Assembly (NCBI RefSeq): GCF_003815915.1
Contig: NZ_CP033929.1
Coordinates: forward strand, 744,001-808,000
DNA: 64,000 bases
Source of the DNA: Chryseobacterium indoltheticum
GTDB taxonomy: Bacteria; Bacteroidota; Bacteroidia; Flavobacteriales; Weeksellaceae
Direction of reading: 5' to 3'
The position numbers and the translations under genes were made by a program. Below, piece after piece: positions 17,846 through 52,736 of this stretch; within the stretch, counting starts at the first letter, position 1, and each line of letters begins with the position of its first letter. The notes beneath the pieces were generated by a model. The model had not been told where the DNA came from, did no database searches, and saw only the letters and a program-made list of their open reading frames with translations.

Positions 17846-17849
17846 TTAT

Positions 17850-17890
17850 GTCGGAGGGTCTTAGAGTTGGAGGGTTTTAGAGTTTAAAAG
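17850..17890 (+). repeat. IVP element A, left octamer array (sense)
   Basis: Four 8-base units stand at 17852, 17860, 17868 and 17876, alternating nGGAGGGT and nTTAGAGT forms. The first 18 bases (17850-17867) recur after the IVP stop codon at 18325-18342 with 16 of 18 identical, so the IVP gene is bracketed by direct copies. Confidence 0.75.
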
Positions 17891-17937
17891 AAAGCTTTTG
17901 TGTTGGTATTTTTGCTATTTTAGTTAAAAATACAGTG

Positions 17938-18324
17938 ATGTCAATAATTAAATTTCATCAGGATCTTAAAGTATATCAGGAGTCCTTTAAAACAGCAATG
18001 GAAATCTTTGAGTTAACCAAGGTTTTTCCTAAAGAAGAGCTTTACTCTCTTACAGATCAGATTAGAAGATCCTCAAGGTCAGTTTCAGTAAATATTAGCG
18101 AAGCTTGGGGCAAAAGAAAATACGAAAAATCTTTTGTGGCCAAATTGACAGATTCTGAAGGTGAAGCAAGAGAAACCCAATCGTGGCTTGAATTTGCTTT
18201 GGCTTGTAAGTATATTAAAGAAGAACAATATAATAATTTAAACAAACAATATAATCACATCATCGGAATGTTGGTGATTATGATGAATCAATCAGAAAAG
18301 TGGTGCTCATTTGTAGGGAAATAA
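17938..18324 (+). CDS. Four-helix-bundle protein (23S rRNA intervening-sequence protein family)
   Basis: The 128-residue protein belongs to the S23/IVP four-helix-bundle family, first seen encoded in intervening sequences of 23S rRNA genes and related to the Avd protein of diversity-generating retroelements. Family marks are LKVYQESFKTAMEIFELT (helix 1), FPKEELYSLTDQIRRSSRSV and NISEAWGKR, then a GEARETQSWLEFAL helix. ATG 17938 is preferred over the adjoining GTG at 17935. It is one of three diverged copies in the window and, like the others, is enclosed by short-unit arrays. Its biochemical function is not known. Confidence 0.85.
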   Translation: MSIIKFHQDLKVYQESFKTAMEIFELTKVFPKEELYSLTDQIRRSSRSVSVNISEAWGKRKYEKSFVAKLTDSEGEARETQSWLEFALACKYIKEEQYNNLNKQYNHIIGMLVIMMNQSEKWCSFVGK

Positions 18325-18477
18325 GTCGGAGAGTTTTAGAGTGGAAGAGTTATTGAGTAGGAATAGAAAAAAGAGAATTCTAAAACTCTAAATTTTCATA
18401 TTTACTTAAAACACGAAAGCCCTCAAACGCTCCAATTCACATACCCTCAAACTCACCAATCCTCAAACTTTAAAACT
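18325..18477 (+). repeat. IVP element A, right facing octamer arrays
   Basis: Immediately after the IVP stop, five sense octamers run from 18327 to 18366 (for example TTTAGAGT at 18335, GGAAGAGT at 18343). From about 18380 the polarity flips: complementary octamers run in exact 8-base phase to 18475 (for example CCCTCAAA at 18420 and again at 18444, TCCTCAAA at 18460). Bases 18330-18340 pair perfectly with the AGAGTTTTAGA complement at about 18379-18390. The array ends two bases before the ctlX ATG. Confidence 0.75.
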
Positions 18478-19401
18478 ATGCAGACAACAGATACAGTATT
18501 AATGATAGAGCCGATTGCATTCGGTTACAATGCAGAAACGGCAGAAAATAATTATTTTCAAGTAGAGCAGAAAGGGGCGGATATTCAGTCAAAAGCTTTG
18601 GCAGAATTTAAAATTTTTGTTGAAAAACTGAGAAATAAAGGAATTAATGTTATCACCATAAAAGATACTATCGATCCTCATACTCCGGATTCTATTTTTC
18701 CAAACAATTGGGTAAGCTTCCACAAAGATGGAAAAGTGGTTTTGTATCCGATGTTTGCTTCAAACAGAAGAGTAGAGCGAAGAGAAGATATTATTGAAAG
18801 TATCAAAAATCAAGGTTTTGAAGTATCAGAAATTGATGACTGGTCTTTGCCTGAAATGCAAGGACACTTTTTGGAAGGAACGGGAAGTATGATCTTTGAT
18901 CATGATAACAAAATCGCTTATGGTTCGGTTTCTTTGAGGCTTGATGAAAATTTATTCAGAGAATTCTGTACCAAATATAGATTTACCCCGGTTGTCTTCC
19001 ACTCGTTTCAAACGGTTGGTGACGAGAGGCTACCAATTTATCATACCAATGTAATGATGTGTGTGGCCGATCAATTTGTCGTGATTTGTTTAGATTGTAT
19101 TGATAGTGAACTGGAAAGAAGCAAAGTAATAGAAACCATTAAAAATTCAGGAAAAGAGATCATTGAAATTTCTGAAGAACAAATGCAGCAATTTGCCGGA
19201 AATATGCTTCAGGTACAAAATAAAGATGGTGAAAAGTTTTTAGTAATGAGCCAAACTGCTTATCAGTCTTTGAATGCTGAGCAAATTTCAAATATCGAAA
19301 AATATTGTGAAATCATTTATTCAGATTTAAATACGATTGAAGTAAACGGAGGCGGAAGTGCACGTTGTATGTTGGCAGAAGTTTTCTTACCTAAAAAATA
19401 A
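18478..19401 (+). CDS. ctlX: Citrulline utilization hydrolase CtlX-like
   Basis: The 307-residue pentein-fold enzyme shows VLMIEPIAFGYNAETAENNY at its start, PNNWVSFHKDGKVVLYPM (about residues 75-92), GTGSMIFDHDNKIAYGS and the terminal catalytic cysteine C297 in GGGSARCMLAE. These fit the citrulline ureidase/CtlX group, which hydrolyses citrulline to ornithine, CO2 and ammonia. It probably works in the same pathway as the arginine-deiminase-like enzyme upstream. The start codon abuts the octamer array, and a terminator follows. Confidence 0.85.
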   Translation: MQTTDTVLMIEPIAFGYNAETAENNYFQVEQKGADIQSKALAEFKIFVEKLRNKGINVITIKDTIDPHTPDSIFPNNWVSFHKDGKVVLYPMFASNRRVERREDIIESIKNQGFEVSEIDDWSLPEMQGHFLEGTGSMIFDHDNKIAYGSVSLRLDENLFREFCTKYRFTPVVFHSFQTVGDERLPIYHTNVMMCVADQFVVICLDCIDSELERSKVIETIKNSGKEIIEISEEQMQQFAGNMLQVQNKDGEKFLVMSQTAYQSLNAEQISNIEKYCEIIYSDLNTIEVNGGGSARCMLAEVFLPKK

Positions 19402-19425
19402 AGTATTTTAAATTAAATAAATTAC

Positions 19426-19458
19426 AACTTCTGGCTTTCTAAAAGTCAGAAGTTTTTT
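19426..19458 (+). terminator. Terminator after ctlX
   Basis: Arms 19426-19437 and 19443-19454 pair over 12 bp with one G-U; six T residues follow. Confidence 0.85.
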
Positions 19459-19493
19459 ATGCTTAGATACGAAGCAAACCGTTTAAAAAACTT

Positions 19494-19501
19494 TAAATTT
19501 G
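19494..19501 (+). promoter_or_regulatory. Promoter -7 element
   Basis: TAAATTTG lies 20 bases before the ATG at 19522 and just after the ctlX terminator, so the next gene is probably monocistronic. Confidence 0.55.
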
Positions 19502-19521
19502 TAGAAATATAAAGTTTGATT

Positions 19522-21279: not shown

Positions 21280-21327
21280 GGTTAAATTAAAAAGATTACT
21301 GTAGAAATTCCTTTCGAGGACTTTACA

Positions 21328-21371
21328 AAAAGCTGGCGTGCATTTATCTAAAAGCACGCCAGCTTTTTTTA
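21328..21371. terminator. Bidirectional terminator between convergent genes
   Basis: Perfect 14-bp stem (21328-21341 with 21354-21367), T-run on the right and A-run on the left. A third copy of the right arm core (ACGCCAGCTTTTT) follows at about 21399-21411, next to the stop of the minus-strand esterase. Confidence 0.9.
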
Positions 21372-21409
21372 AAATGCAGGCTTGCTTTTTTAAAACGGAC
21401 GCCAGCTTT

Positions 21410-22252
21410 TTATTTTTTGTCAGTATGCATTAGGAATTCACTGATAGAATGAATGACAAAAGGTGCATTTTTCTCATTCGCCCAATCGAGATGCCCACCG
21501 GGAAATTCGAAAGATTGATTAAGAATGCCGTTTTTATTTAAAGCAGAATCTAAAATCTTTTTTTGTGATAACGGAATTACAGTGTCATTATTTCCGTAAA
21601 AAGAAATTGTTGGTGAAGCATTTTTAGTTATCCAGTAAACCGGACTTGCATAATCTTCTATAGAAATTCCCTTAGAAAGTATAGTGGGATCAACCAAATG
21701 ATTTTCAACAAATGAACAATCATAATAACTTTTAAAACTTGGATCTGATAAATCGGCTGGTCCAACGATATTCACCACGGCTTTTACTCTTTTATTAGCA
21801 TCAAACTTATATGAATAAAGCATTGATAAATGACTACCTGCACTGTTTCCCAGAAGAATAATATTAGGTTTATATCTCAATGTTTTCTCTAAAAATAAAA
21901 TTACTTTATCAATATCATCGGTCTGGTTTGGGATTCCGAAACGATTTTCCGAAGCCAATCTGTAATTAATGTTTGCAAAAACACATTGTGGAAACTTATT
22001 CATCATCGACAATGTGAAATAAGTAAGCTGAGATTTGTTTCCTCCTTTCCATCCTCCGCCATGAATGATGATGAATAAGTCTTTATTTTGTTGAGTGTTT
22101 TTGGGAATATATAAATCTAATTTTTGTTCAGAATCATTTCCATAAGAGATATCCATCTGTTTATCGAAAGTAATGTCTTTATTGATATTGATTGTTTTTT
22201 CTTTGCAGTTTAACAGTAAAATGAAAAATAAAAGTGCTAAAAATTTATTCAT
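21410..22252 (-). CDS. Alpha/beta-hydrolase (BD-FAE-like esterase), probable lipoprotein
   Basis: The 280-residue product has an N-terminal hydrophobic stretch ending in LLLNCKEK, a plausible though atypical lipobox. The catalytic domain shows the oxyanion motif IIIHGGGWKGG (about residues 62-72), the nucleophile in LLGNSAGSHLS, the aspartate in FYGNNDTVIP and the histidine in FPGGHLDW. This is the HGGGW type of esterase/deacetylase fold. Substrate is not evident. It lies downstream of the TonB-dependent receptor gene on the same strand but behind a terminator-like hairpin. Confidence 0.8.
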   Translation of the reverse strand: MNKFLALLFFILLLNCKEKTININKDITFDKQMDISYGNDSEQKLDLYIPKNTQQNKDLFIIIHGGGWKGGNKSQLTYFTLSMMNKFPQCVFANINYRLASENRFGIPNQTDDIDKVILFLEKTLRYKPNIILLGNSAGSHLSMLYSYKFDANKRVKAVVNIVGPADLSDPSFKSYYDCSFVENHLVDPTILSKGISIEDYASPVYWITKNASPTISFYGNNDTVIPLSQKKILDSALNKNGILNQSFEFPGGHLDWANEKNAPFVIHSISEFLMHTDKK

Positions 22253-22266
22253 ACTTAAATATAAAC

Positions 22267-22294: not shown

Positions 22295-22325
22295 TGTACA
22301 AAATAAAATATATGAAGATTGAATG

Positions 22326-25194: not shown

Positions 25195-25222
25195 CTAACT
25201 TCTAACTTCTAACTTCTAACTT
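25195..25222 (-). repeat. Heptamer array between nadD and DUF3817 (4 units)
   Basis: On the minus strand four perfect AAGTTAG units run directly on from the nadD stop codon TAG (25225-25223), which itself sits in a degenerate unit (AAGTAG). On the plus strand the unit reads CTAACTT at 25195, 25202, 25209 and 25216. Confidence 0.9.
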
Positions 25223-25807
25223 CTACTTATAAAAACTACTCCCATCCAAATATTCAAAAACTTCCGGTGGAAGCATCGGTCTAATGTTTTTGCCCTGCTT
25301 AATCATATTGCGAATTTCAGTTGCAGATAACTCAATAACAGGTGCTTTCACAAGCGAAATATTTTCGTGATTTATATATTTATAATCTTTTTTGTCACCT
25401 TCAAAAACTCTAGGGTAAACAATAATATGATGATTCTTTATCAATAAATCGACATTTTTCCATTTGTGTAAACTTCCAAGATTATCTTCACCCATTATTA
25501 AACTAAAAGAATAGTCTGGATGTTTTTCTTTCAGATATGTCAAAGTGTCAATGGTATAACTAGGCGTAGGAAGTGAAAATTCAACATTCGAAGCCCGCAT
25601 CTCCGGATAATTTTTGATGGCGAGTTCTACCATATCGAGTCTGTTGTGATCATTCAGAAGCGACCTTTTTTCTTTAAACGGATTTTGCGGACTCACTACA
25701 AACCACAATTCATTCATATCCGAATTTTCAAGAATATAATTCGCCAATATCAAATGCCCGATATGAATTGGGTTAAATGATCCGAAAAATAAACCTATTT
25801 TTTTCAA
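25223..25807 (-). CDS. nadD: Nicotinate-nucleotide adenylyltransferase
   Basis: The 194-residue enzyme makes nicotinate adenine dinucleotide from nicotinate mononucleotide and ATP in NAD synthesis. Signatures are GLFFGSFNPIHIGHLILA (nucleotidyltransferase HxGH motif, about residues 5-18), FSLIMGEDNLGSLHKWK and the ISSTxIR-like LSATEIRNMIKQGK. The start is a TTG at 25807-25805; no in-frame ATG lies nearby. It follows an IVP element directly, and the array of that element ends at this start codon. Confidence 0.95.
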   Translation of the reverse strand: MKKIGLFFGSFNPIHIGHLILANYILENSDMNELWFVVSPQNPFKEKRSLLNDHNRLDMVELAIKNYPEMRASNVEFSLPTPSYTIDTLTYLKEKHPDYSFSLIMGEDNLGSLHKWKNVDLLIKNHHIIVYPRVFEGDKKDYKYINHENISLVKAPVIELSATEIRNMIKQGKNIRPMLPPEVFEYLDGSSFYK

Positions 25808-25840
25808 AACTTATATATTAGGTTAAGGTTAATACTAAGG
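25808..25840 (-). repeat. IVP element B, 3' array (antisense)
   Basis: On the minus strand this short array has period 6, with AACCTT at two positions 12 bases apart followed by AACCTA. It includes the last codons and stop of the IVP gene (CAACAACCTTAG) and ends at the nadD TTG start. It complements the 5' array at 26222-26247. Confidence 0.6.
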
Positions 25841-26200
25841 TTGTTGCCTGTTAAGATAAGACGCTATTTTATTAATTTCATGAATTACTTCATCGATTAT
25901 ATTTTTAATTTCTAAGTAATCTGTTTCCTTAAAATATTTAACCCTAACTCCATAAATCAAATGACTTTTAGCTTCAAATGCCGAACCTCTTGAAATATCA
26001 TAAAATCGACTTTTGTCTTTACTGGTACGCCTTCCAAAACCTTCAGCTATATTAGCTGAAATACTTTCTGCAGATCTTCTTAACTGAGAGGTAAGAGCAT
26101 AATCTTCTTTCCGAGGTAAGGTTTCACTAATGTTAAAACATTTTTCAGCAATGTCCATTGCCTTTCGCCAAACTGGCATTTCAGTAAAATCATTTATCAT
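25835..26200 (-). CDS. Four-helix-bundle protein (23S rRNA intervening-sequence protein family)
   Basis: The 121-residue protein is a second, diverged IVP copy: MPVWRKAMDIAEKCFNI (helix 1), LPRKEDYALTSQLRRSAESI, ANIAEGFGRRTSKDK, then GSAFEAKSHLIYGVR. ATG at 26200 is preferred; an upstream in-frame ATG at 26251 would overlap recJ and lacks family similarity. It stands between recJ and nadD on the minus strand, with arrays filling both gaps. Function unknown. Confidence 0.85.
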   Translation of the reverse strand: MINDFTEMPVWRKAMDIAEKCFNISETLPRKEDYALTSQLRRSAESISANIAEGFGRRTSKDKSRFYDISRGSAFEAKSHLIYGVRVKYFKETDYLEIKNIIDEVIHEINKIASYLNRQQP

Positions 26201-26221
26201 TTGTGTGGTTTTTAGCGTTAC

Positions 26222-26247
26222 AATATACCTAAACCTTAGACTTAGCC
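26222..26247 (-). repeat. IVP element B, 5' array (sense)
   Basis: Starting at the base after the recJ stop, the minus strand reads six-base units such as GCTAAG, TCTAAG, GTTTAG and GTATAT. Its complement (CTTAGA, CTAAAC) resembles the 3' array at 25808-25840, so the transcript can pair across the IVP gene. Confidence 0.55.
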
Positions 26248-27963
26248 TCAATTCTCCAAAAACTTCACATCTTTAATATTCAGGCAATGTGTTACATTTC
26301 CTTTCCAGTGATTTTCTTCTAATGTAAAAGCGATATCGAAATTTTTAGTTCTGAAATCATCAGCAAATTGACCCAGTTTAAAACCTATACATTCTATATT
26401 TCTTCCGGTAGATTCTTGTTTGATGTAAAACTTCAGGTGATTGTTATCTTTACCCATCGTTTTTAAATAACCGGAAATTTTTTGATTCCTTAAAACCAAA
26501 TTAGGCTTCATATTTTGAGGCCCGAAAGGAGCCAGCTTTCTGTGGAAATTAATGAAATCTCTATTGATCTCATCAATATGAACGTCAGAATCTATGGTGA
26601 TTGACGGTTCTTTTTGGTGGTCTTTTATCTTTTCACCTACGATTCTCTCAAATTTAATTTTGAAATCCTCAAACTTCGATTTTTCCATAGAAAGTCCTGC
26701 AGCAGCATGGTGACCTCCAAACTTCAGGAAGTATTCTGAGCATAAATCTAACGCTTCATGTACATCAAAATCTGAAACCGATCGGGCAGAAGCTACCATT
26801 TCGCCATTGTTTCCGTCCGTAAAAACCAATGTAGGTTTGTAGTAGGTTTCGGTAAGTCTTGAAGCAACAATTCCTATAACGCCTTTGTTCCATTCGGGAT
26901 GGTAAACAATGGTTGAGAATTTGGTTTCCTGTTGAGATTCTATAATTTGATTCAGTGCTGAAAGAGTAGAATTCATGTCGAGTTCACGTCTTTCATCATT
27001 AAGATTCATAATGTCGCTTACAATTTGGTGAGCGTGTTTCAGATTGTCAGAAACCATCAGTTCAACAGCAGCTTTTCCTTGTGAAATTCTTCCCGCAGCG
27101 TTGATTTTTGGTGCAATTTCAAAAACAATATTTGAAATTTCAAAATGAGAAAGTTTATCTTCAGGGATCAAAAGTCTCAGTCCCATATTTCGGGTTTTTC
27201 TGAGCATCTTAAGACCCATTTTTGCTAGAACCCTGTTTTCTCCGGTCATCGAAACAATATCTGCAGCAATTGAAATTGCCAAAAGATCTGTCAGTTCAAA
27301 CAATTCAGATTCCGGTATTTTGTAAATAGTGTTTAGTCCTTGGCATAATTTAAAACCTACACCACAGCCTGAAAGTTCCTTAAAAGGATACCTGCAGTCG
27401 TTTCTTTTTGGATCTAAAACAGCAACTGCATCAGGAATTTCATCTCCTGGCAAGTGATGGTCACAGATAATAAAATCGATGTCTTTGCTTTTGGCATAAT
27501 TGATCATGTCAGTGGCCTTGATTCCGCAATCTAATGCGATAATCAACGAAAAACCATTGTCCTTTGCAAAGTCAATTCCTTCGGTAGAGATTCCGTAGCC
27601 TTCAGAATTACGATCCGGGATATAATAGTCTAAATATTTTTTTTGAACAATTTTACTCAGATAAAGATACATCAGAGCAACCGCAGTCGTTCCGTCTACA
27701 TCATAATCTCCGTAAACCATGATTTTTTCACCGTTTTCGATAGCTGTTGCAATACGCTCTACGGCTTTTTGCATATCTGCCATCAAAAAAGGACTGTGAA
27801 TATCGGTTACATTAGGTTTGAAAAACTCTCTTGCCTTTTGATAATTGTCAATTCCTCTGAGAACTAATAGTTTAGATTCAAAAGTTCCAAAACCAAGCGA
27901 CGAACTCAATCCATCAACAATTTCTTCATCAGGTTCAGGTTTATAAATCCATTTTTGACTCAT
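26248..27963 (-). CDS. recJ: Single-stranded-DNA-specific exonuclease RecJ
   Basis: The 571-residue protein is a DHH-family 5'-3' exonuclease used in recombination and mismatch repair. Metal-binding motifs are DYDVDG (residues 86-91), ALDCG near 144, DHH at 168-170, and the DHHA1 part with GGHHAAAGLSM and GxIN-like APKINAAGRIS. The ATG at 27963 (MSQKWIYKPEPDEE) is preferred; an in-frame ATG 48 bases upstream adds a non-conserved stretch. The length matches the family. Confidence 0.96.
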   Translation of the reverse strand: MSQKWIYKPEPDEEIVDGLSSSLGFGTFESKLLVLRGIDNYQKAREFFKPNVTDIHSPFLMADMQKAVERIATAIENGEKIMVYGDYDVDGTTAVALMYLYLSKIVQKKYLDYYIPDRNSEGYGISTEGIDFAKDNGFSLIIALDCGIKATDMINYAKSKDIDFIICDHHLPGDEIPDAVAVLDPKRNDCRYPFKELSGCGVGFKLCQGLNTIYKIPESELFELTDLLAISIAADIVSMTGENRVLAKMGLKMLRKTRNMGLRLLIPEDKLSHFEISNIVFEIAPKINAAGRISQGKAAVELMVSDNLKHAHQIVSDIMNLNDERRELDMNSTLSALNQIIESQQETKFSTIVYHPEWNKGVIGIVASRLTETYYKPTLVFTDGNNGEMVASARSVSDFDVHEALDLCSEYFLKFGGHHAAAGLSMEKSKFEDFKIKFERIVGEKIKDHQKEPSITIDSDVHIDEINRDFINFHRKLAPFGPQNMKPNLVLRNQKISGYLKTMGKDNNHLKFYIKQESTGRNIECIGFKLGQFADDFRTKNFDIAFTLEENHWKGNVTHCLNIKDVKFLEN

Positions 27964-33004: not shown

Positions 33005-34480
33005 ATGAAAAATCTAAAATTAGGAATTTCAGCATTGGCGCTTACGGTTGCCTCTACTGTTTTCGCTCAGACTACCAACAATCCGTGGATGATCGGGGTT
33101 GGTGCTCATGCGGAAAACCATACAGCACAGCGTGATAATTTCAGTAACACGTTTTCTGCTACTAATTTGACGAAGAATATGTTCAATATGAACAATTTTT
33201 CTATTACACCACCACTTTCTAAATTAACAGTTGCTAGAAACATTGGCAAAGGTTTAGTTATTGACTGGCAAACTTCTGTTGGAAATGTTGAGAACAAAAG
33301 ACTTAACATGGGTAAAGAGTTTATGTTAATGACTGGTCTTGGTTTTCAAGCTAAAGCTGCTGGTTTAATTTGGGACGAAGAGTCTTGGTTTGATCCTTAC
33401 TTGAGAGTAGGTGCAAACTATTTAAGACATGATTACACAGCTCTTTCTTTCCCAAGACAAACTTTCATCAACGGAAATCCTGCAGAAATGACTTCTAACG
33501 GAGATAATGGGATGGAAATGGGTAAAGCAAACCACTTTACTGTGTCTACAGGTGCAGGTGTTAACTTCTGGTTAACAAAGAACTTCGGTTTAGGTGTACA
33601 AGGTGATTATGTTTCTACTCCAGGTGATAAAGCGAACTATGCTAATTTCTGGCAAGCTTCTGCTTCTTTGAACTTTAGATTCGGGAACAGAGACAGAGAT
33701 AAGGATGGTATCTTAGATAAAGACGATTTATGTCCAGATACACCAGGTTTACCAGAATTCCAAGGATGTCCTGATACAGACGGTGATGGAGTTCCAGATA
33801 AAGACGATCAGTGTCCAGATGTTGCTGGTCCGGTTGAAAACAATGGTTGCCCTTGGCCAGATACAGATGGTGATGGTATTATCGACAAAGATGATGCTTG
33901 TCCTACTGTTGCAGGTCCTGCAGAAAACAACGGTTGTCCTTGGCCAGATACAGACGGTGATGGTATCTTAGATAAAGATGATGCATGTCCTACAGTTCCT
34001 GGTGTTCCAGAATTCAACGGATGTCCTCCTCCACCAGCTAAGCCAGTTGCTGAAAAAGTAACAGAAGAGTTTAGAGATCTATTATTTGACTTTAACAAAG
34101 CTACTATCAGAGCTCAATCTAATGGTAAATTAGATCAAGCGGCTAGAATTATTAAAGAAGCACCAGCTGAAAACTTTGTGATCGTTGGTATGACTGATAA
34201 AAAAGGTAGCGATACTTATAACTTGAACTTATCTAGACAAAGAGCTGCTGCTGTAGTTGCTGCTTTAGAAGCTAGAGGTGTTAACCCATCAGTATTGAAA
34301 TCAATCGGTATCGGTGAGCAAGAAGCTACTGTTGATGAAACTGCTTCTGATGCTGAAAGACAAGCTGATAGAAGAGTTGTTGTAAGAGGAATCTCTGGTG
34401 CAGAGTGGGATACTTACAAAAAATCTGACTTACCAGCTACTCCTAAGAAGAAAGCTCCGGCTAAGAAAAGAAGAAAATAA
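33005..34480 (+). CDS. OmpA-family outer-membrane protein with thrombospondin-3 repeats
   Basis: The 491-residue protein has a signal peptide (ALALTVASTVFAQ), an eight-strand beta-barrel-like region to about residue 230, then four calcium-binding TSP3 units (DxDxDGxxDxxDxCP; DGILDKDDLCP, DGVPDKDDQCP, DGIIDKDDACP, DGILDKDDACP), a proline-rich spacer (CPPPPAKP) and an OmpA peptidoglycan-binding domain (LLFDFNKATIRAQSNGKL, NLNLSRQRAAAVVAAL, ERQADRRVVV). It ends in a very basic tail (KKKAPAKKRRK). This layout is common among abundant flavobacterial porin-like proteins that tie the outer membrane to the wall. Confidence 0.93.
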   Translation: MKNLKLGISALALTVASTVFAQTTNNPWMIGVGAHAENHTAQRDNFSNTFSATNLTKNMFNMNNFSITPPLSKLTVARNIGKGLVIDWQTSVGNVENKRLNMGKEFMLMTGLGFQAKAAGLIWDEESWFDPYLRVGANYLRHDYTALSFPRQTFINGNPAEMTSNGDNGMEMGKANHFTVSTGAGVNFWLTKNFGLGVQGDYVSTPGDKANYANFWQASASLNFRFGNRDRDKDGILDKDDLCPDTPGLPEFQGCPDTDGDGVPDKDDQCPDVAGPVENNGCPWPDTDGDGIIDKDDACPTVAGPAENNGCPWPDTDGDGILDKDDACPTVPGVPEFNGCPPPPAKPVAEKVTEEFRDLLFDFNKATIRAQSNGKLDQAARIIKEAPAENFVIVGMTDKKGSDTYNLNLSRQRAAAVVAALEARGVNPSVLKSIGIGEQEATVDETASDAERQADRRVVVRGISGAEWDTYKKSDLPATPKKKAPAKKRRK

Positions 34481-38361: not shown

Positions 38362-38382
38362 AAATCAATAAATTGATTTTTG
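38362..38382 (+). terminator. Weak A/T hairpin after the lipoprotein gene
   Basis: AAATCAAT (38362-38369) pairs with ATTGATTT (38372-38379), followed by TTT. Stability is low. Confidence 0.35.
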
Positions 38383-38399
38383 ATTAAGCATATTTAAAA

Positions 38400-38438
38400 A
38401 TTCACTATTCACTTGCGAAGCAAAATTCACCATTGATT
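38400..38438 (+). repeat. Heptamer array at the RDD gene 3' end
   Basis: Two ATTCACT units (38400, 38407), an 11-base spacer with the palindrome TTGCGAAGCAA, then ATTCACC (38425) and ATTGATT (38432). The last unit overlaps the RDD stop codon (38437-38439 on the minus strand). Confidence 0.65.
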
Positions 38439-43155: not shown

Positions 43156-44196
43156 ATGGAAAATTATGATGATCAGAATTTAGAAAATCAAAATTCTATC
43201 AATTTAAATAAAGAACAAAAAGATCAGAGCCAATTTGAGTCGAGAATTGATATGATCGAGCTTCGTGGAAACTTAAATAAAGTAAAAACGGAGATTGCAA
43301 AAGTAATTGTCGGCCAGGAAGATATGGTCGAACATCTTTTGGCTGCTTTGCTTTCAAATGGTCATGTTTTGATTGAAGGCGTTCCGGGAGTTGCAAAAAC
43401 AATTACAGCAAAATTACTGGCAAAAACCATTGATGTTGATTTCAGCAGAATACAGTTTACGCCGGATTTGATGCCTTCAGATATTTTAGGAACATCAATT
43501 TTCAGCATGAAAAATTCTGAATTTGAATTTAAAAAAGGACCCATTTTCTCAAGCTTCATTCTGATTGATGAAATCAACCGTTCTCCGGCAAAAACGCAGG
43601 CGGCGTTGTTTGAAGTAATGGAGGAGAAGCAGATTACAATTGACGGAACCCGATACGAAATGGATGAACCTTTTCTTGTCGTTGCTACCCAAAACCCAAT
43701 CGAGCACGAAGGAACTTACCGACTTCCGGAAGCTCAGCTTGACCGATTTTTATTCAAAATCAATGTAGGTTATCCTAATCTGGACCAAGAAGTTGCAATT
43801 ATCAAAAATCAGCATGACAGCAGACTTGAAGACAAGACTGAAGCAGTAAATAAAGTGATTACAGCACAACAGTTAAATAATTATCAGAAATTAGTAAAAG
43901 AAATAATTGTTGAGTCTCAACTGATCGAATACATCGCTAAAATTATCATCAATACCAGAGAAAATCAATTTTTATATTTGGGAGCTTCACCAAGAGCGAG
44001 TCTGGCTTTATTAACGGCTTCAAAAGCTTTCGCAGCTTTAAGAGGCAGAGACTTCGTAACGCCTGAAGATATCAAAGAAGCGAGTTACGCAGTGTTAAGA
44101 CACAGAGTAATTGTTTCTCCTGAAAGAGAAATGGAAGGCTTGACTGCTGATGAAATTATCAGACAGACTTTAGAAGGAATAGAGATTCCAAGGTAG
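43156..44196 (+). CDS. MoxR family AAA+ ATPase
   Basis: The 346-residue ATPase has Walker A GVPGVAKT (residues 75-82), Walker B FILIDEINR (about 134-142), the MoxR segment TPDLMPSDILGTSIF, sensor-1 region FLVVATQNPIEHEGTYRLPEAQ and LDRFLFK, and a C-terminal lid. MoxR ATPases act as chaperones for the maturation of complexes, usually with a DUF58 partner. Its TAG stop (44194-44196) is the exact left edge of IVP element C, which separates it from the DUF58 gene. Confidence 0.95.
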   Translation: MENYDDQNLENQNSINLNKEQKDQSQFESRIDMIELRGNLNKVKTEIAKVIVGQEDMVEHLLAALLSNGHVLIEGVPGVAKTITAKLLAKTIDVDFSRIQFTPDLMPSDILGTSIFSMKNSEFEFKKGPIFSSFILIDEINRSPAKTQAALFEVMEEKQITIDGTRYEMDEPFLVVATQNPIEHEGTYRLPEAQLDRFLFKINVGYPNLDQEVAIIKNQHDSRLEDKTEAVNKVITAQQLNNYQKLVKEIIVESQLIEYIAKIIINTRENQFLYLGASPRASLALLTASKAFAALRGRDFVTPEDIKEASYAVLRHRVIVSPEREMEGLTADEIIRQTLEGIEIPR

Positions 44197-44226
44197 GTTG
44201 CTGGTAGGAGATTTTAGGTTATAGGT
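44192..44226 (+). repeat. IVP element C, left heptamer array (sense)
   Basis: Five units in exact 7-base phase, mostly NNNNGGT: GGTAGGT at 44192, TGCTGGT at 44199, AGGAGAT at 44206, TTTAGGT at 44213, TATAGGT at 44220. The first overlaps the moxR stop. GGTTGC (44196-44201) and AGATTTTAGGT (44209-44219) are the exact complements of GCAACC (44652-44657) and ACCTAAAATCT (44641-44651) on the right side. Confidence 0.85.
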
Positions 44227-44253: not shown

Positions 44254-44604
44254 ATGGCTAATTTTAAAGAACTTTTGGTTTGGCAAAAATCGATAAATTT
44301 TGTAACTGAAATTTATGAATTGACAAATGATTTTCCTAAAAATGAAATGTATGGATTGATATCACAAATCAGAAGAGCTTCAATTTCAATTCCGTCTAAT
44401 ATTGCTGAAGGAAACTCAAGAAGAAGTGTTGCTGATTATTTACAATTTCTAAAAATAGCAAGAGGAAGTTGCGCAGAAGTTGAAACTCAATTAATTATTG
44501 CCCAAAATCTTAAATTTTTAAATGAAGAACATTATTTAAAATTAAATCAGGACATCATTGAAATTTCAAAAATGCTAAACGGACTTATCAATTCATTAAA
44601 ATAA
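44254..44604 (+). CDS. Four-helix-bundle protein (23S rRNA intervening-sequence protein family)
   Basis: The 116-residue protein is the third IVP copy: LLVWQKSINFVTEIYELT, FPKNEMYGLISQIRRASISI, SNIAEGNSRRSVADYLQFL and GSCAEVETQLIIAQNL, all family marks in order. It interrupts an otherwise tight moxR-DUF58 gene pair and is enclosed by inverted heptamer arrays. This makes it look like an inserted element rather than a part of the MoxR system. Confidence 0.88.
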   Translation: MANFKELLVWQKSINFVTEIYELTNDFPKNEMYGLISQIRRASISIPSNIAEGNSRRSVADYLQFLKIARGSCAEVETQLIIAQNLKFLNEEHYLKLNQDIIEISKMLNGLINSLK

Positions 44605-44617: not shown

Positions 44618-44657
44618 ACGGTATTTAACTGCAACCTAAAACCTAAAATCTGCAACC
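44618..44657 (+). repeat. IVP element C, right heptamer array (antisense)
   Basis: Units in 7-base phase: CAACCTA at 44632, AAACCTA at 44639, AAATCTG at 44646, then CAACC. The array ends at 44657, the base before the TTG start of the DUF58 gene. It is the reverse complement, with a 7-base indel, of the left array. Confidence 0.85.
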
Positions 44658-45980
44658 TTGAAAAACCTATACATCAATACCCGCTTTTTTTTCGCACTGA
44701 TCGGTGTAGGAATACTTTATGTTTTGGCATTTTTCTTTCCGTTTTTTATGATTTTGGGGCATGGCATTTTATTACTGGTTTTCCTTACAGCATTTGTTGA
44801 TTATTTGCTTGTTTTCAGACAAAAAGATGCTGTTTTAGCACAAAGAATTTTACCTGAAAAATTATCAAATGGTGATGAAAATGCTGTGAAAGTTGATATT
44901 AAAAATAATTATAGTTTTAAAATCAATGTAAAGGTGATTGATGAAATTCCTTTTCAGTTTCAGAAGCGGGATTTTTTAATTAAAAAAGAAATTCAGTCCG
45001 GTAAAAATACGCTGTTTCAATATTTTCTGGAACCAAAAGAACGAGGAGAATATAATTTTGGAGCTTTAAATGTTTATGCTTCGTCGCCCATCGGTTTCGT
45101 TTCAAAAAGATTTATATTTCAGAAAGATACTTCTTTGGCTTCTTATCCGTCATTTATTCATTTAAGAAAATTCGAGTTGATGGCGCTTCAGAATGAGTTT
45201 TTGTTAGGAGGCATCAAAAAGATCAGAAAACTGGGACATACGATGGAATTTGAGCAGATCAAAGAATATGTTCCCGGAGATGATGTAAGAACGATCAACT
45301 GGAAAGCGACTTCTAAAACCAATCGTTTGATGGTCAACCAGTTTCAGGATGAAAAATCGCAACGTATTTTTATGTTGATTGACAAAGGAAGAACGATGAA
45401 AATGCCTTTTAACGGCTTAAGTCTTCTTGATTATTCGATCAATGCGACAATGGCGCTTTCTCATATTATTCTGAAAAAAGGTGACCGCGCAGGAATGATG
45501 ACCTTTTCAAAGAAAACCGAAAATAAAATAGCTGCCGAAAATAAATCAGGTCAATTAAGAAAAATTTCTGAAGCGTTATATAATATTAGAACCGATTTTT
45601 TTGAAAGTGATTTCAATAGACTGTATCAGGATGTAAAATACTCAATTAATCAAAGAAGTTTGGTTTTGCTATTTACCAATTTCGAAACATTGGATGGTCT
45701 AAACAGACAGATGAAATATTTGAGAGGTATCGCCAAAAACCATTTATTGGTGGTTGTATTCTTTAAAAATACAGAGATACAGAAACTCATGAATACTCAT
45801 CCCGAAAGTATGCAGGGGATTTATGATGAAATCATCGCTGAGAAATTTGAATTTGAAAAAAAACTCATCATTCAGGAATTAAGAAAATACGGAATTTATT
45901 CAGTTTACACGCTCCCGGAAAATCTTAATGTCGATGTCATTAATAAATATCTTGAGATAAAAGCAAGAGGAATTTTATAA
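44658..45980 (+). CDS. DUF58 domain protein
   Basis: The 440-residue protein has two N-terminal hydrophobic segments (FFFALIGVGILYVLAFFFPF and the next 25 residues), an immunoglobulin-like region, and the DUF58 core with FEQIKEYVPGDDVRTINWKA (about residues 200-220) followed by a vWA-like domain (RIFMLIDKGRTM). DUF58 proteins are the standard MoxR partners. The TTG start at 44658 is forced by the absence of nearby ATG and lies directly against the heptamer array, suggesting that the insertion replaced the original leader and perhaps the original start. Confidence 0.9.
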   Translation: MKNLYINTRFFFALIGVGILYVLAFFFPFFMILGHGILLLVFLTAFVDYLLVFRQKDAVLAQRILPEKLSNGDENAVKVDIKNNYSFKINVKVIDEIPFQFQKRDFLIKKEIQSGKNTLFQYFLEPKERGEYNFGALNVYASSPIGFVSKRFIFQKDTSLASYPSFIHLRKFELMALQNEFLLGGIKKIRKLGHTMEFEQIKEYVPGDDVRTINWKATSKTNRLMVNQFQDEKSQRIFMLIDKGRTMKMPFNGLSLLDYSINATMALSHIILKKGDRAGMMTFSKKTENKIAAENKSGQLRKISEALYNIRTDFFESDFNRLYQDVKYSINQRSLVLLFTNFETLDGLNRQMKYLRGIAKNHLLVVVFFKNTEIQKLMNTHPESMQGIYDEIIAEKFEFEKKLIIQELRKYGIYSVYTLPENLNVDVINKYLEIKARGIL

Positions 45981-45990
45981 AAATAAGCAA

Positions 45991-46587: not shown

Positions 46588-47012
46588 TGAAAATTACACT
46601 AAACAGACTCAACGACGATTTTTTATTTGAATGCACCAATGCACAGGGAAATTCAATTTTGTTAGACAATACATCTCAGCCAGGTGCAAAAGGTGTTTCA
46701 CCAATGGAAAGTGTTTTGATGGCAGTTGCGGGTTGCAGCGGAATTGATGTTGTTTCTATTTTGAAAAAACAGAGACAGGAAATTACAGATTTCAAAGCTG
46801 AAGTAGAAGGCGAAAGAGTTGCTGTAGATGATGCAAAACCATTCAAATCAATTAATGTAAAGTTTTTATTGGAAGGAAATATCGATCCTAAAAAAGCTTT
46901 AAAAGCATCAGAATTATCTTTTGAAAAATATTGTTCAGTTTCAAAAACACTTGAACCTAATGTAGAAATCGGGTACGAAGTTTTTGTAAACGGAGAGAAA
47001 GTTGAGAAATAA
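46587..47012 (+). CDS. OsmC family protein
   Basis: The 141-residue protein has the OsmC/YhfA-like fold: GVSPMESVLMAVAGCSGIDV with the first redox cysteine near residue 50, and SFEKYCSVSKTLEPNVEI with the second near residue 116. OsmC proteins reduce organic peroxides; the YhfA subgroup has unclear function. Its start codon is fused to a perfect heptamer array, so translation or transcription could depend on the repeat number. Confidence 0.9.
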   Translation: MKITLNRLNDDFLFECTNAQGNSILLDNTSQPGAKGVSPMESVLMAVAGCSGIDVVSILKKQRQEITDFKAEVEGERVAVDDAKPFKSINVKFLLEGNIDPKKALKASELSFEKYCSVSKTLEPNVEIGYEVFVNGEKVEK

Positions 47013-47102
47013 AGTGGGAGAGTTTTAGTGTTTGAGAGTTATTGAAAATTTTACTTATTCAATAACTCTCAAACATTATTTCACTCAAACACTCTAACCT
47101 CA
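47013..47102. repeat. Facing octamer arrays between convergent genes (gene-free element)
   Basis: From the OsmC stop to the stop of the convergent glycosidase gene the sequence runs in 8-base units. Left units include GTTTTAGT (47022) and GTTTGAGA (47030); right units are complementary, for example CAAACACT (47086). An 18-base perfect inverted repeat (47029-47046 and 47058-47075, loop 11) forms the core. The first 18 bases (47014-47031) match the IVP element A repeat at 18325-18342 in 16 positions. It may serve as a bidirectional terminator. Confidence 0.85.
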
Positions 47103-49715: not shown

Positions 49716-49866
49716 TTTCAGCCATTTTCATGGCTAAGTTAATTTTTTTGATAAATAATTCCAATTTTTTTAATCTGAATAATTATTAACAATCTTCCAC
49801 AAACCTCGCTGATATTACGTTTTATGATATTTGTTAATTTTTTTTAATTTTTAAAATAAAAAGTTT

Positions 49867-49874
49867 TATATTTG
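49867..49874 (+). promoter_or_regulatory. Promoter -7 element of the methionine regulon
   Basis: TATATTTG fits TAnnTTTG and lies 30 bases before the 5' side of the SAM-I aptamer, so the riboswitch would begin the transcript. Confidence 0.6.
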
Positions 49875-49903
49875 CACCATTCGTTCATTTACATATTGAA
49901 AAT

Positions 49904-50009
49904 GTTATCAAGAAAGGTTGAGGGATAGACCCTGTGAAACCTTAGCAACCCTTTGCGCAAGCAGAGAAGGTGCTACGTTCTACCAAATAATTTATTTTGG
50001 ACAGATAAC
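49904..50009 (+). ncRNA. SAM-I riboswitch (S-box)
   Basis: The core elements of the SAM-I aptamer are present in order: P1 arms GTTATC (49904-49909) and GATAAC (50004-50009), AGGTTGAGGGATAGACCC, TGTGAAACCTTAGCAACC, then AAGGTGCTACGTTCTACC. It senses S-adenosylmethionine and lowers expression of methionine genes. Two small hairpins follow: AACTT/AAGTT at 50007-50020, overlapping the P1 3' strand, and GCCAT/GTGGC at 50028-50042 with a short T-run. Either could be the expression platform. The regulated gene, metX, starts 64 bases after P1. Confidence 0.93.
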
Positions 50010-50073
50010 TTACTGAAGTTCTTTTCAGCCATTTCTCGTGGCATTTTCAAATTTATTTATAATAATATAAAAT

Positions 50074-51012
50074 TTGAAAACAGAACTGCAACATATTAAT
50101 TTTTTGTACAAAACCGATTCTCAGAGAGAATATCATATCCTGTTAAGCTATCAGCTTTTTGGGAAAGAGCTATTTTCAGCACCCATCATTTTGGTCAATC
50201 ATGCTTTAACCGGAAACTCGAATGTTGCCGGAGAAAAGGGTTGGTGGAAACAACTGATTGGTGAAAATCAGGTGATTGATACAATTAAATATACAGTGCT
50301 CTGTTTCAATATTCCCGGAAATGGATATGACGATTTTTTTATTAATGAATATTCAGATTTTACCCCTTCAGATATTGCAAATATATTTTTGAAAGGTCTT
50401 GAATCTTTACATATTACAAATTTATATGTCCTTATTGGAGGGTCTTTAGGAGGCGCAATTGGCTGGGAAATGCTTTCAAAAAAGCCAGATTTGGCCGAAA
50501 TTTTTATTCCAATTGCCTGTGATTCTAAAACTCATGATTGGTTGCATGCACAATGTCTTGTTCAGAAATTTTTATTAAACGGAAATGATGAACCGATACA
50601 AAAAGCCAGAATTCATGCGATGTTATGCTACAGAACACCTCAGTCTTTAAACGACAGATTTCAAAACAAATACACTCAGGAAAAACAAGCGTTAGAATCT
50701 CAAAACTGGCTTAATTATCATGGGAAATCTCTTGCCGAAAGATTTAGTTTAAAATCATATCAATTGATGAATCATTTATTGATGAATATTAATGCTGATG
50801 AAAATATGATGCAGAAAATTCAGGCACGAATGCACATGATCTCTGTAGATACAGATTTATTTTTTCCTGCCTCTGAAATTAGGAATGGCTTTGAGAAGCT
50901 AAAGGAAAATAAACAAGATGTTTTCTATCACGAGATCAAATCAATTCATGGGCACGACGCCTTCTTAATGGAATACAGTCAATTAAATAATATCATAAAT
51001 AATATTTTGTAA
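50074..51012 (+). CDS. metX: Homoserine O-acetyltransferase MetX-like
   Basis: The 312-residue alpha/beta-hydrolase has VNHALTGNSN, the nucleophile S124 in IGGSLGGAIGWEM, the aspartate in SVDTDLFFP and the histidine in IHGHDAFLMEY, the MetX triad in family order. It activates homoserine with acetyl-CoA (or succinyl-CoA) for methionine synthesis. It is shorter than most MetX (about 350-380), the lid region being reduced. The start is TTG at 50074. The SAM-I riboswitch directly upstream supports the assignment. Confidence 0.92.
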   Translation: MKTELQHINFLYKTDSQREYHILLSYQLFGKELFSAPIILVNHALTGNSNVAGEKGWWKQLIGENQVIDTIKYTVLCFNIPGNGYDDFFINEYSDFTPSDIANIFLKGLESLHITNLYVLIGGSLGGAIGWEMLSKKPDLAEIFIPIACDSKTHDWLHAQCLVQKFLLNGNDEPIQKARIHAMLCYRTPQSLNDRFQNKYTQEKQALESQNWLNYHGKSLAERFSLKSYQLMNHLLMNINADENMMQKIQARMHMISVDTDLFFPASEIRNGFEKLKENKQDVFYHEIKSIHGHDAFLMEYSQLNNIINNIL

Positions 51013-51066
51013 GATAAAAGGAGTTTAAGGTAATTCCGTCTTATAAAAAAATAAAAAAGGTTACAG

Positions 51067-52608
51067 ATGAAAAGTAATGCAAACGAAATAAAATTTTTAA
51101 AGAACAGATCAATCATTAAATTTGAAGGAGAAGATTTTTTAGGTGAAATAGGGATCGATGGAAGAGTATTTAAAGCGCTTACATTCGCCCGTATCAGTGT
51201 TGGGATAATTTCTCAGCAGGCAGTAGAAAACGGATTGTCGATTCTGGTACACGAAGATGATTCTGAAAAAGCGGTAAACTGTCTGATCGAAGAGTTTGCT
51301 GCAGAAAGAAAATCAGGTAAAGTTTCTCAGATTTACAGCATCAACAATGTTTCTGTTATCGGTTTTGTGGCAGAAGATCTCAATAAAATACTTTCAGAAT
51401 TGGCAAGAAATAACGTTTTTCCATTGTTGTTAAACCAGAATTCAAGCGAAAAGCGTATCAATATTGTTGTGACATCTTCTCAGGATGAGAAAACTAAAAA
51501 TATCATTGAATCTGAAATTTTCAAAAAACCAAAAACAGTTCATCTCGCAATTATTGGTCACGGAAATGTAGGAAAGACTTTAATAGAGCAGGTTTTACAT
51601 TCTTCGGAAGAAATTAAAAGAAGAAAAAATATACATCTTAAAGTTGTTGCGGTAGCTAATTCAAGAAAAATAGCTTTCAACAAAAAAGGTTTTGACAACC
51701 AATGGAGCAATGAGATTTTTGCCTCTGAAAAAACTTCAAATGTAGAAGAATTAATTAATTTCTCTAAAGAAAACCAGCTTGAAAATCTAATCGTAGTCGA
51801 TAACACGGCAAGTACAGATTTTGTTAAAAATTACCATGCGTTGGCAGAAAACGGCTTCGATTTGGTTTCTTCAAATAAAATTTTCAACACACTTCCAATT
51901 GAAGAATACCGTAAACTAAGATATACGTTGAATAAAAACAACAAACGTTATTTGTATGAAACCAATGTTGGAGCAGGTTTGCCATTAATCGATACCATAA
52001 AACTTTTACATCTTTCCGGTGAAAATATTACAAGAATCAAAGGTGTTTTTTCAGGAACATTGAGTTATGTTTTCAATAACTTCTCTTTGCGAAATGATAA
52101 ATTTTCTACAATCGTTAATGAAGCGCTTGAAAAAGGTTTCACCGAACCAGATCCAAGAGAAGATTTATCAGGAAATGATGTGGCTCGCAAGTTATTGATC
52201 TTGGCGAGAGAATTAGATTTAATAAATGAATTTAACGATATCAACATCCAAAATCTGGTTCCGGAAGCTTTGCTTTCTATATCAAAACAGGAATTCCTTT
52301 CAAGGTTAGAAGATTTGGATGAAGAATACGATAAAATTAAGAAAAATCAGGAGCCTGGTCACGTTTTAAGATATGTTGGTGATTTGCACGGCGATTTACA
52401 GAAAGAGAAAGGCAATCTTGATGTTAAGCTAATTTCTGTTCCTGCAACTTCCGCTTTGGGACAACTGAAAGGCTCAGATTCAATTTTTGAAATCTACACC
52501 GAAAGTTATGGTGAAAATCCAATTGTCATCATGGGAGCCGGCGCCGGAGCTAAGGTTACAGCAAGAGGAGTTTTCGGAGATATTTTAAGATTAAGTGAAA
52601 CTAAATAA
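51067..52608 (+). CDS. Homoserine dehydrogenase with N-terminal ACT region
   Basis: The 513-residue protein resembles the C-terminal part of the bifunctional ThrA/MetL enzymes. Residues 1-150 form the aspartokinase-type ACT region (SIIKFEGEDFLGEIGIDGRV, ISVGIISQQAVENGLSILV, NNVSVIGFVAEDL) without a kinase catalytic domain. Residues 155-510 are homoserine dehydrogenase: AIIGHGNVGKTLIEQ (NAD(P) loop), VDNTAS, NVGAGLPLIDTIKLL, KGVFSGTLSYVFN and EPDPREDLSGNDVARKLLIL. It supplies homoserine to MetX, 54 bases upstream. The kinase must be encoded elsewhere. Confidence 0.92.
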   Translation: MKSNANEIKFLKNRSIIKFEGEDFLGEIGIDGRVFKALTFARISVGIISQQAVENGLSILVHEDDSEKAVNCLIEEFAAERKSGKVSQIYSINNVSVIGFVAEDLNKILSELARNNVFPLLLNQNSSEKRINIVVTSSQDEKTKNIIESEIFKKPKTVHLAIIGHGNVGKTLIEQVLHSSEEIKRRKNIHLKVVAVANSRKIAFNKKGFDNQWSNEIFASEKTSNVEELINFSKENQLENLIVVDNTASTDFVKNYHALAENGFDLVSSNKIFNTLPIEEYRKLRYTLNKNNKRYLYETNVGAGLPLIDTIKLLHLSGENITRIKGVFSGTLSYVFNNFSLRNDKFSTIVNEALEKGFTEPDPREDLSGNDVARKLLILARELDLINEFNDINIQNLVPEALLSISKQEFLSRLEDLDEEYDKIKKNQEPGHVLRYVGDLHGDLQKEKGNLDVKLISVPATSALGQLKGSDSIFEIYTESYGENPIVIMGAGAGAKVTARGVFGDILRLSETK

Positions 52609-52616
52609 TATTAATA

Positions 52617-52732
52617 TAACAATTTAATAATGTAACAGTTTACCAATGTTTATTACAAGTATCATTCTGATCGAAAAAAAGTGAAGAATCTCATTGTTAC
52701 ATTGCTAAACTGATACATTGTTACATTTCAAA
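52617..52732 (+). repeat. Facing octamer arrays (gene-free element) before metZ
   Basis: Left array: TAACAATT (52617), TAATAATG (52625), TAACAGTT (52633), TACCAATG (52641). Right array, opposite polarity: ATTGTTAC (52693), ATTGCTAA (52701), ACTGATAC (52709), ATTGTTAC (52717), ATTTCAAA (52725). Both keep an exact 8-base phase and are complementary, with about 44 unrelated bases between them. The right array ends 4 bases before the metZ ATG. Confidence 0.85.
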
Positions 52733-52736
52733 CTAT

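Follow-up and report, generated by a model that had tools for sequence, protein, structure and literature searches.

Three intergenic gaps in a 64,000-nt stretch of the Chryseobacterium indoltheticum chromosome (contig NZ_CP033929.1, bases 744,001–808,000 of a single-contig genome of 4.25 Mb; hereafter the window) each hold a gene of the 23S rRNA intervening-sequence protein family (IVP, also called S23; Pfam accession number PF05635) between two arms made of short tandem units, the second arm being inverted relative to the first. From the comparison of these loci with IVP loci of many other genomes, we consider it probable that the IVP gene and its two inverted short-period arms form one inheritable foldback element, similar to repetitive extragenic palindromic (REP) sequences and miniature inverted-repeat transposable elements (MITEs), with IVP as its cognate protein. 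The three IVP genes had been named in a preliminary description made from the letters of the window, and Pfam confirmed all of them (116–149 bits, against a curated cut-off of 33.8). Genomes and loci are cited by G and L numbers. The parts of the three cassettes are as follows.

17853..17884, plus strand: upstream arm of IVP cassette 1, 8-nt theme (GGAGGGTCTTAGAGTT twice), detected by TRF
17935..18324, plus strand: IVP gene 1, GTG start (PF05635, Pfam)
18325..18363, plus strand: second array of cassette 1, behind IVP gene 1, theme and orientation as in the upstream arm (TRF)
18378..18470, minus strand: downstream inverted arm of cassette 1, aligned as locus L005 with a score of 24
25808..25837, minus strand: downstream arm of IVP cassette 2, the gene of which is on the minus strand
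25838..26251, minus strand: IVP gene 2, between recJ-like and nadD-like genes (PF05635, Pfam E = 1.1e-33)
26228..26251, minus strand: upstream arm of cassette 2 (TTGAGGCTAAGTCTAAGGTTTAGG in the minus-strand reading)
44195..44226, plus strand: upstream arm of IVP cassette 3 (AGGTTGCTGGTAGGAGATTTTAGGTTATAGG), score 33
44254..44604, plus strand: IVP gene 3 (PF05635, Pfam)
44632..44657, minus strand: downstream inverted arm of cassette 3, abutting the start codon at 44658

The Pfam match covers positions 17935–18321 in gene 1 (E = 3e-34) and 44254–44601 in gene 3 (E = 8.3e-44). In gene 2 it starts at residue 24; the listed start codon, a TTG, lies inside the upstream arm, and the true start is therefore probably located further in. 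Cassette 1 begins right behind the stop codon of the preceding gene and its downstream arm stops near the start codon of the following gene, and the upstream arm of cassette 3 overlaps the stop codon of the preceding gene. When gaps were tested one by one against Markov-1 shuffles (smallest reachable p = 0.003 for period and 0.007 for foldback), the arm pair at 44.2/44.6 kb was significant (p = 0.004), that at 17.9/18.3 kb was weak (p = 0.038), and that at 25.8/26.2 kb was not significant alone (p = 0.11). A period was detected at 44.6 kb (p = 0.037) and a foldback at 18.3 kb (p = 0.033).

The pairing of the arms was examined by an arm score, in which the 200 nt upstream of a gene were aligned with the reverse complement of the 200 nt downstream. 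PF05635 gave 13 rows in the genome of C. indoltheticum, corresponding to 12 loci, with one frameshifted gene split in two rows. The true pairing of these 12 loci summed to 409, whereas 100,000 re-pairings averaged 255 and never exceeded 360, and the own arm pair ranked first in nine loci, second in two and third in one. Scores of at least 24 and at least 30 were reached by 10 and nine of the 12 loci, respectively. All 12 genes are co-directional with both neighbours, and one of them sits between groES and groEL. Among 344 control genes in 400 kb of the same genome, the mean score was 20.1 and ten genes scored at least 30, two of them being known IVP genes and the second-ranked one encoding a PDDEXK_3 (PF13366) nuclease. 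At the same level, two of 494 genes were found in IVP-rich relatives (one IVP gene and one DUF5362 gene) and three of 409 genes in IVP-free genomes, two of which resembled terminator pairs.

Outside C. indoltheticum, PF05635 is present in 59 of 60 genomes of the genus, G046 being the sole genome without a match, and in 157 of 198 Bacteroidota genomes. Inverted array pairs with a score of at least 24 were found at 10 of the 12 own loci and at 90 of 118 others. A phylum set, consisting of the best-scoring loci from 29 Bacteroidota genomes, summed to 887 against a maximum of 689 (100,000 permutations), and a plasmid set of 10 loci out of 34 records (eight cyanobacterial, one from Gemmatimonadota and one from Alphaproteobacteria, Azospirillum) summed to 440 against 409 (100,000 permutations). 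A third set was taken from GTDB, namely the 80 best loci retained from a multi-phylum scan, of which 79 were used because L262 lies at a contig end; it represents about 20 phyla by record title, mostly metagenome bins. This set summed to 2707 against a maximum of 1549 (20,000 permutations), and 65 of its 79 loci reached 24, as compared with 4% of mispaired arms, and 46 reached 30, as compared with 1.3%. The IVP gene was co-directional with both neighbours in 49 of the 62 classifiable GTDB loci. The association between short-period arrays and IVP genes, proposed in the preliminary description from the window, is strongly supported by these data and extends to IVP genes elsewhere. Two outcomes that the same description had named as fatal to the idea, IVP genes elsewhere without such flanks and equally frequent arrays where IVP is lacking, were not observed.

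A stricter control used 60 small co-directional genes that have a gap on each side; four of its top six genes were identified, ranks 1, 4 and 6 being IVP genes and rank 2 a Y1 transposase gene. With flanks trimmed to the gap, all IVP sets scored higher than this control, which kept its IVP genes in the comparison (own genome, p = 5e-6; phylum, 4e-5; plasmids, 5e-7; GTDB, 8e-8). Cross-pairing of 41 own and genus loci gave 1256 against a permuted mean of 1379, that is, no excess; we hold this comparison invalid because the loci were not gene-oriented and many were orthologous, so that mispaired coding flanks matched each other. The valid pairing sets are those of the own genome, the phylum, the plasmids and GTDB, and the 29 genus loci lie outside these.

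Some individual loci deserve mention. The arm units of the plasmid loci include GGGAGTA, GGTGACA and GGGAACA, and the IVP genes of cyanobacterial plasmids lie between heptamer arrays. In plasmids of Pseudanabaena and Anabaena (L213 and L215), the cassette is located in CRISPR operons, with cas6 on one side and cas4 on the other, and in Nostoc edaphicum (L214) it lies antisense between both ribonucleotide reductase genes. The locus L277, titled Limnohabitans, is similar over the whole locus to Flavobacterium loci (76% over 3.1 kb with L251) and is probably a misbinned Flavobacterium contig.

The arms share a period. They were selected by inverted similarity alone, with periodicity ignored, and in the 100 armed loci among 130 their self-identity at lag 7 was 0.584, as compared with 0.311 after shuffling (z = 46). 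Lag 14 (z = 58) and lag 8 (z = 6) were also in excess, and the remaining lags between 3 and 15 were all depleted. The best lag was 7 in 77 loci, 8 in 18 and another value in five. Of the unit sizes of 6, 7 and 8 nt given in the preliminary description, 7 and 8 are borne out, and 6-nt arrays are unsupported as a class (best lag 6 in one of 100 loci). The same description had units strictly kept within a locus, which was overstated, as the units of one arm differ among themselves. Fixed core-plus-spacer units, as in TRAP-like ring binding, were considered and rejected, since unit identity at rotated positions was about that of a within-locus permutation.

The arms also have a polarity. On the sense strand of the IVP gene, the upstream arm was G-rich in 90 loci, C-rich in five and tied in five (n = 100), and the G-rich polarity was kept in both loci in which both neighbours are reversed and in nine of the ten in which one neighbour is reversed. 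Since polarity follows the orientation of the IVP gene and not that of the neighbours, it seems to be a property of the element.

The unit is not simply specific to the locus, as had been supposed, but tracks the IVP protein among related IVPs. Arm similarity rose from approximately 0.22 at protein score ratios below 0.5 to 0.46 at 0.7–0.8 and 0.55 above 0.8 (Mantel p = 0.006, all pairs of 98 loci). After removal of pairs with any flank homology, in DNA or protein, the 43 pairs with a ratio of at least 0.65 still had an arm similarity of 0.40, as compared with 0.22 (relabelling p = 5e-5). A CAGGAGT/CAGAAGT theme is common to Nitrospiraceae, Dadabacteria, Planctomycetota and Balneola, and a AAGGCACAGAGGCACAAAG theme is found in both Nitrospirae and Bacteroidota. 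Because the array theme follows the protein over species and sites, the arms and the gene travel and are inherited together.

Orthologous gaps occur in several states. The gap before a DUF58 gene, which holds the third IVP gene of the window, was read by eye in 50 of the 60 genus genomes. Full cassettes were found in some relatives; truncated IVP remnants between arms in G015, G042 and G047; both arms minus IVP in G038 and G007; mainly the right arm in G046, G024 and G028; solo foldbacks of the TTAGGGA theme in G022, G048, G043, G012, G050, G004 and G017; and chimeras of both themes in G054 and G037. In the close relative G057 (94% identical protein), the gap is 41 nt long with no visible array. 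In these readings, element boundaries were blurred by array turnover. In the nadD gap, which holds the second IVP gene of the window and was compared in 50 genomes, the close relatives G059, G057, G041 and G011 carry a solo array in place of IVP, with the theme seen at 38.4 kb of the window and also around L010, an IVP locus of the own genome, and several relatives carry an IVP gene with arms of a TTAGGG theme. Of 30 groES–groEL gaps, 17 are IVP-sized and most of the 13 others contain arrays of another theme or one-armed arrays.

Arrays and foldbacks that lack an IVP gene are also present in the window, at the following positions.

3397..3427, plus strand: solo array (TAAAATC)4.4 before rplP (TRF; period p = 0.007)
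25195..25225, no strand assigned: solo array (CTAACTT)4.4 at the end of the nadD-like gene (TRF; period p = 0.003)
38372..38436, plus strand: solo right half (AAATTCACTATTCACTTGCGAAGCAAAATTCACCATTGATTAA) of a dispersed CTTGCGAAG module, same sequence as copy L471
46518..46587, plus strand: solo direct array (GCAATAA)10 abutting the OsmC start codon (TRF; period p = 0.003)
47010..47102, no strand assigned: solo foldback of an 8-nt theme, without IVP, between OsmC and a convergent gene (foldback p = 0.007; RNA folding z = -8.0)
52609..52736, no strand assigned: solo foldback of an 8-nt theme (AATGTAAC), without IVP (period and foldback p = 0.007; RNA folding z = -3.6)

Nine gaps with arrays had been listed in the preliminary description. 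Those at 3.4, 25.2, 44.2/44.6, 46.5, 47.0 and 52.6 kb stand, that at 17.9 kb is weak, and those at 25.8 and 38.4 kb are not significant alone (at 38.4 kb, period p = 0.21, foldback p = 0.40 and fold z = -0.4). Likewise, the claim that several are paired as hairpin-forming arrays holds at 44.2/44.6, 47.0 and 52.6 kb, weakly at 17.9/18.3 kb, and not at 25.8/26.2 kb taken alone. That one mechanism builds all of the arrays is plausible.

Solo arrays occur together with IVP genes at the level of genomes. In a survey of the non-coding DNA of 17 genomes, no 6–8-nt array was detected at a threshold of either 10 or 13 in the six Bacteroidota genomes without a PF05635 match (100 kb each; for G133, the zero was deduced from its absence in the match list), as compared with 63 arrays at threshold 10 in the ten genomes with 6–15 IVP matches. 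Cassette arms may account for seven of the 63, which are no more than 300 nt from an IVP open reading frame (ORF); the other 56 are farther away. At threshold 10, IVP count and array density were correlated across the full set of 17 genomes (rho = 0.78, p = 2e-4), also when the seven nearby arrays were left out (rho = 0.63, p = 0.007). Threshold 13 gave 0 against 29 arrays, 24 of them away from IVP, and the two correlations were 0.48 (p = 0.053) and 0.47 (p about 0.05). The CTTGCGAAG module was found in 55 of the 60 genus genomes, in 0–126 copies (10 in the own genome), and the reversed pattern, used as a control, matched in none of the 60. The module is absent from the IVP-free G046. In L151, (TTATCAC)n arrays of unequal length (8977–9077 and 16802–16880) stand beside two rRNA operons in similar surroundings, which is a copy-number change inside one genome.

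Elsewhere in the window, the sole Rfam match at gathering thresholds was a SAM riboswitch (RF00162, 49902–50011, 83.9 bits). Tandem repeats of 87 nt at 33773–34027 encode repeats of the DTDGDGI type (coding read by eye), and three 21-nt near-repeats (TAAAAGCACGCCAGCTTTTTT) at 21349–21411, between convergent genes, are probably a terminator cluster.

A second cargo was found in the same architecture. PDDEXK_3 genes, the products of which we take to be GxxExxY-type nucleases, were taken up because one of them had ranked second in the own-genome control; matches are present in 51 of 99 Bacteroidota genomes. At L144 (871–1239, minus strand) and L302–L331, in Bacteroidota, PDDEXK_3 genes lie between inverted arrays with a period of 9–10 nt and CACAGAGAA-like units. 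For 28 of 30 fetched loci (two were dropped by a length filter), the paired arms summed to 891, whereas the highest of 20,000 permutations gave 698; a score of 24 was reached by 22 loci. With shorter flanks, arms were detected in 21 of the 28 loci; the best lag was 9 in eight of them, 10 in six, and 8, 11 or 12 in the remaining seven, with no excess at 7. These cassettes are a second cargo of the same architecture, and as the period differs by cargo (7 nt for IVP, 9–10 nt for PDDEXK_3), the length of the repeat unit is suggested to be set by a protein. In the DUF58 gap of G011 (L340, 1197–1500), inverted CCACAAAAGGCACAAAAG-type arms like those of PDDEXK_3 cassettes enclose a stretch with stops, and this gap may thus be able to host either type of cargo.

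IVP is best known from intervening sequences (IVS) of 23S rRNA genes. In PMC4990558, the IVP/S23 family is described as having no known function, IVP as a homopentameric toroid (Lin et al. 2006, as cited there), the 23S IVS as excised by RNase III, and the Coxiella IVS as carrying tandem heptamers (GACAGAT) before the ORF, in two or three sets depending on the strain. The solved structures of the family (2gsc and 2rld) are four-helix bundles. In our alignment of 122 IVP sequences, Q34 and E71 are invariant and P24, E27 and R37 nearly so (numbering of the L001 match); an S-N-E-G motif is also conserved, a motif for which the scan had selected. One IVP locus, that of Azospirillum lipoferum (L221), is located within a 23S rRNA gene and has arms in the form of 7-nt arrays. 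Together with the Coxiella heptamers (PMC4990558), this locus supports the tie to the 23S home that the preliminary description had drawn. It was the only one of 251 loci (approximately 160 of them IVP loci) to match the own rRNA operon by BLAST. The window cassettes share with the IVS of Leptospira and Coxiella the protein family and, as a set, the placement of the ORF in the loop of complementary arms, but they are intergenic, and rRNA is a rare home in the sets examined. The general 7-nt rule, the inheritance of themes and the solo derivatives of IVP elements do not appear in the descriptions of 23S IVS consulted. In the open PMC literature consulted, as opposed to subscription journals and preprints, no tie between IVP and inverted heptamers was found beyond the Coxiella IVS.

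The cassettes may also be compared with systems of REP sequences and REP-associated tyrosine transposases (RAYTs; PMC8266576). They differ from these in that the cassette gene belongs to PF05635 and encodes a four-helix bundle and not a HuH (Y1) protein, in that the arms are constrained in period but not in sequence, and in that Y1_Tnp does not follow the solo modules. The likeness is that REPtrons and REPINs also have a protein gene between inverted hairpins and, as may be the case here, numerous hairpins without the gene at other sites of the genome. Their location sets the window cassettes apart from 23S IVS, and their protein sets them apart from REP/RAYT; they look as if they worked like both. 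IVP is further related by Pfam to bAvd of diversity-generating retroelements, IVP gene 3 giving a weak bAvd match (E = 1.3e-7) under the curated cut-off; the difference is that RVT_1 is absent from 27 of the 60 genus genomes and IVP from G046 only. Heptamer arrays themselves have been described several times. GGGAATC arrays of Xanthomonas and Nostoc have 7-nt units, with inverted pairs noted in Xanthomonas (PMC4692102); in the P6b stem of Nostoc trnL, a heptamer theme is replaced as a unit (PMC4476775); and TAACTGA arrays of Beggiatoaceae have counterparts in Cyanobacteria and Bacteroidetes (PMC4679880). Term searches gave no mention of "intervening", "S23" or "four helix" in PMC4679880 and none of "S23" in PMC4692102.

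Considering that the arms keep a 7-nt, less often 8-nt, period together with a theme of the IVP clade, the IVP ring protein most likely reads the arms. It would bind a periodic strand of 7-nt pitch or its hairpin and, together with replication and repair functions of the host, would promote the copying of arms into other array-bearing gaps and help to homogenise both arms of a cassette. The homes of the element are mainly gaps between co-directional genes and occasionally 23S rRNA, and solo arrays and foldbacks would be gene-less derivatives, as MITEs and REPs are to their transposases. In transcripts, the arms can pair and RNase III could cut the cassette out of the mRNA; such excision, established for 23S IVS by other groups, would allow operons and rRNA to tolerate the insertion.

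Other explanations have to be weighed against this element. The arms might be mainly an RNA device, in which the cistron is excised by RNase III and no mobilisation in trans takes place, IVP being either dispensable cargo or an autoregulator of its own mRNA. The anatomy is that of the RNase III-excised 23S IVS (PMC4990558), the IVP gene has the direction of both neighbours in most loci, and in the 47.0-kb foldback RNAalifold predicted 25 pairs over seven genomes, three of them with double compensatory change. This explanation, however, accounts neither for the period nor for themes common to distant elements, and polarity stayed with the IVP gene in both armed loci with reversed neighbours; we regard it as unlikely. 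We think it quite unlikely that the arrays are products of ordinary replication slippage and that IVP genes merely prefer array-rich gaps. Slippage would fit the many solo arrays without IVP and the variable copy number in relatives, as of (GCAATAA)n before OsmC, but would leave unexplained the inverted partner arm, the 7-nt period, which recurs in many phyla and comes with depletion of most other lags, and the theme that related IVPs share although their sites are unrelated and their phyla differ, and the sampled IVP-free genomes have no arrays.

Two explanations invoke known enzymes. In one, the solo foldbacks would belong to a RAYT/Y1 transposase (REP) system unrelated to IVP; Y1_Tnp is found in 54 of the 60 genus genomes. 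A Y1_Tnp gene of the control sample (L134, 457–1020, minus strand), which served as an unplanned positive control and is probably a REP/RAYT unit, has inverted hairpins of its own on each side. These hairpins are GC-rich and dissimilar to the modules, however, the number of module copies was not correlated with Y1_Tnp (rho = 0.18, p = 0.17), and G019 and G024 have 28 and 12 copies with no Y1_Tnp match, so that Y1/RAYT is a very improbable mobiliser of the solo modules. Even less credit can be given to the idea that IVP, like Avd in diversity-generating retroelements, recruits a reverse transcriptase that works in trans and copies hairpin RNA back into DNA. The IVP and bAvd profiles are related, with weak bAvd matches below the cut-off, but besides the many genus genomes that lack RVT_1, among them G004, G016, G017, G018, G020 and G037 with 11–14 IVP matches, neither IVP nor module copies correlate with RVT_1. 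Neither an RVT_1 reverse transcriptase nor a Y1 transposase is required in every carrier.

Several observations weigh against the IVP foldback element itself. No arms above threshold were found in 30 of the 130 IVP loci; two of these low scores are in the own genome, namely L003 (21, with a 4-nt array downstream) and L006 (20), the 25.8-kb locus of the window, which is matched in both flanks (81% and 76%) by L271 of Chryseobacterium limigenitum. The correlation of arms with protein gave no significant signal at score ratios below 0.6. The mean arm complementarity of 38.9, an upper bound because arms were picked by best alignment, fell to 31.0 when the order of units was shuffled (97 loci), which indicates that the shared theme accounts for most of the complementarity, and perfect stem pairing was rejected as the chief constraint. 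In the 47.0-kb foldback, eight of the 25 pairs are broken in one or two sequences, and the covariation term is slightly unfavourable (+0.33). The genome-level correlations of IVP with arrays are uncorrected for phylogeny; the genome with one IVP match has a single array (threshold 10), and away from IVP there are no arrays in G190 and G249 (six and 15 IVP matches) and one each in G123 and G161 (11 and 13). Module copies were only modestly correlated with IVP number (rho = 0.37, p = 0.004), with no copies in G003, G035 and G042 despite nine, eight and five IVP matches. Of 30 module copies fetched, only nine gave a better foldback than any of their 40 shuffles, and no IVP motif was found closer than 1.5 kb to any of the 30. 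We found no transposition event, no target-site duplication and no base-exact pair of empty and filled sites, the element boundaries in the orthologous gaps read by eye being blurred.

The short tandemly repeated repetitive (STRR) sequences of cyanobacteria are intergenic heptamer repeats, and the arrays described here are likewise tandem 7-nt units in gaps. Like the TAACTGA and GGGAATC arrays, STRR have been reported with no agreed cause, and IVP elements are a possible source of them. As a tentative extension, about which we have considerable doubt, IVP/S23 could be a builder and spreader of arrays with a 7-nt pitch that depends on neither HuH nor reverse transcriptase and could account for the excess of heptamers, with PDDEXK_3 acting likewise at 9–10 nt. 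Joining the heptamer arrays with IVP/S23 would give the family a partner in cis and a testable activity, and offers an annotation rule for genes now named "four helix bundle protein". The IVS of 23S rRNA would then become one home of a far wider, previously unrecognised element.

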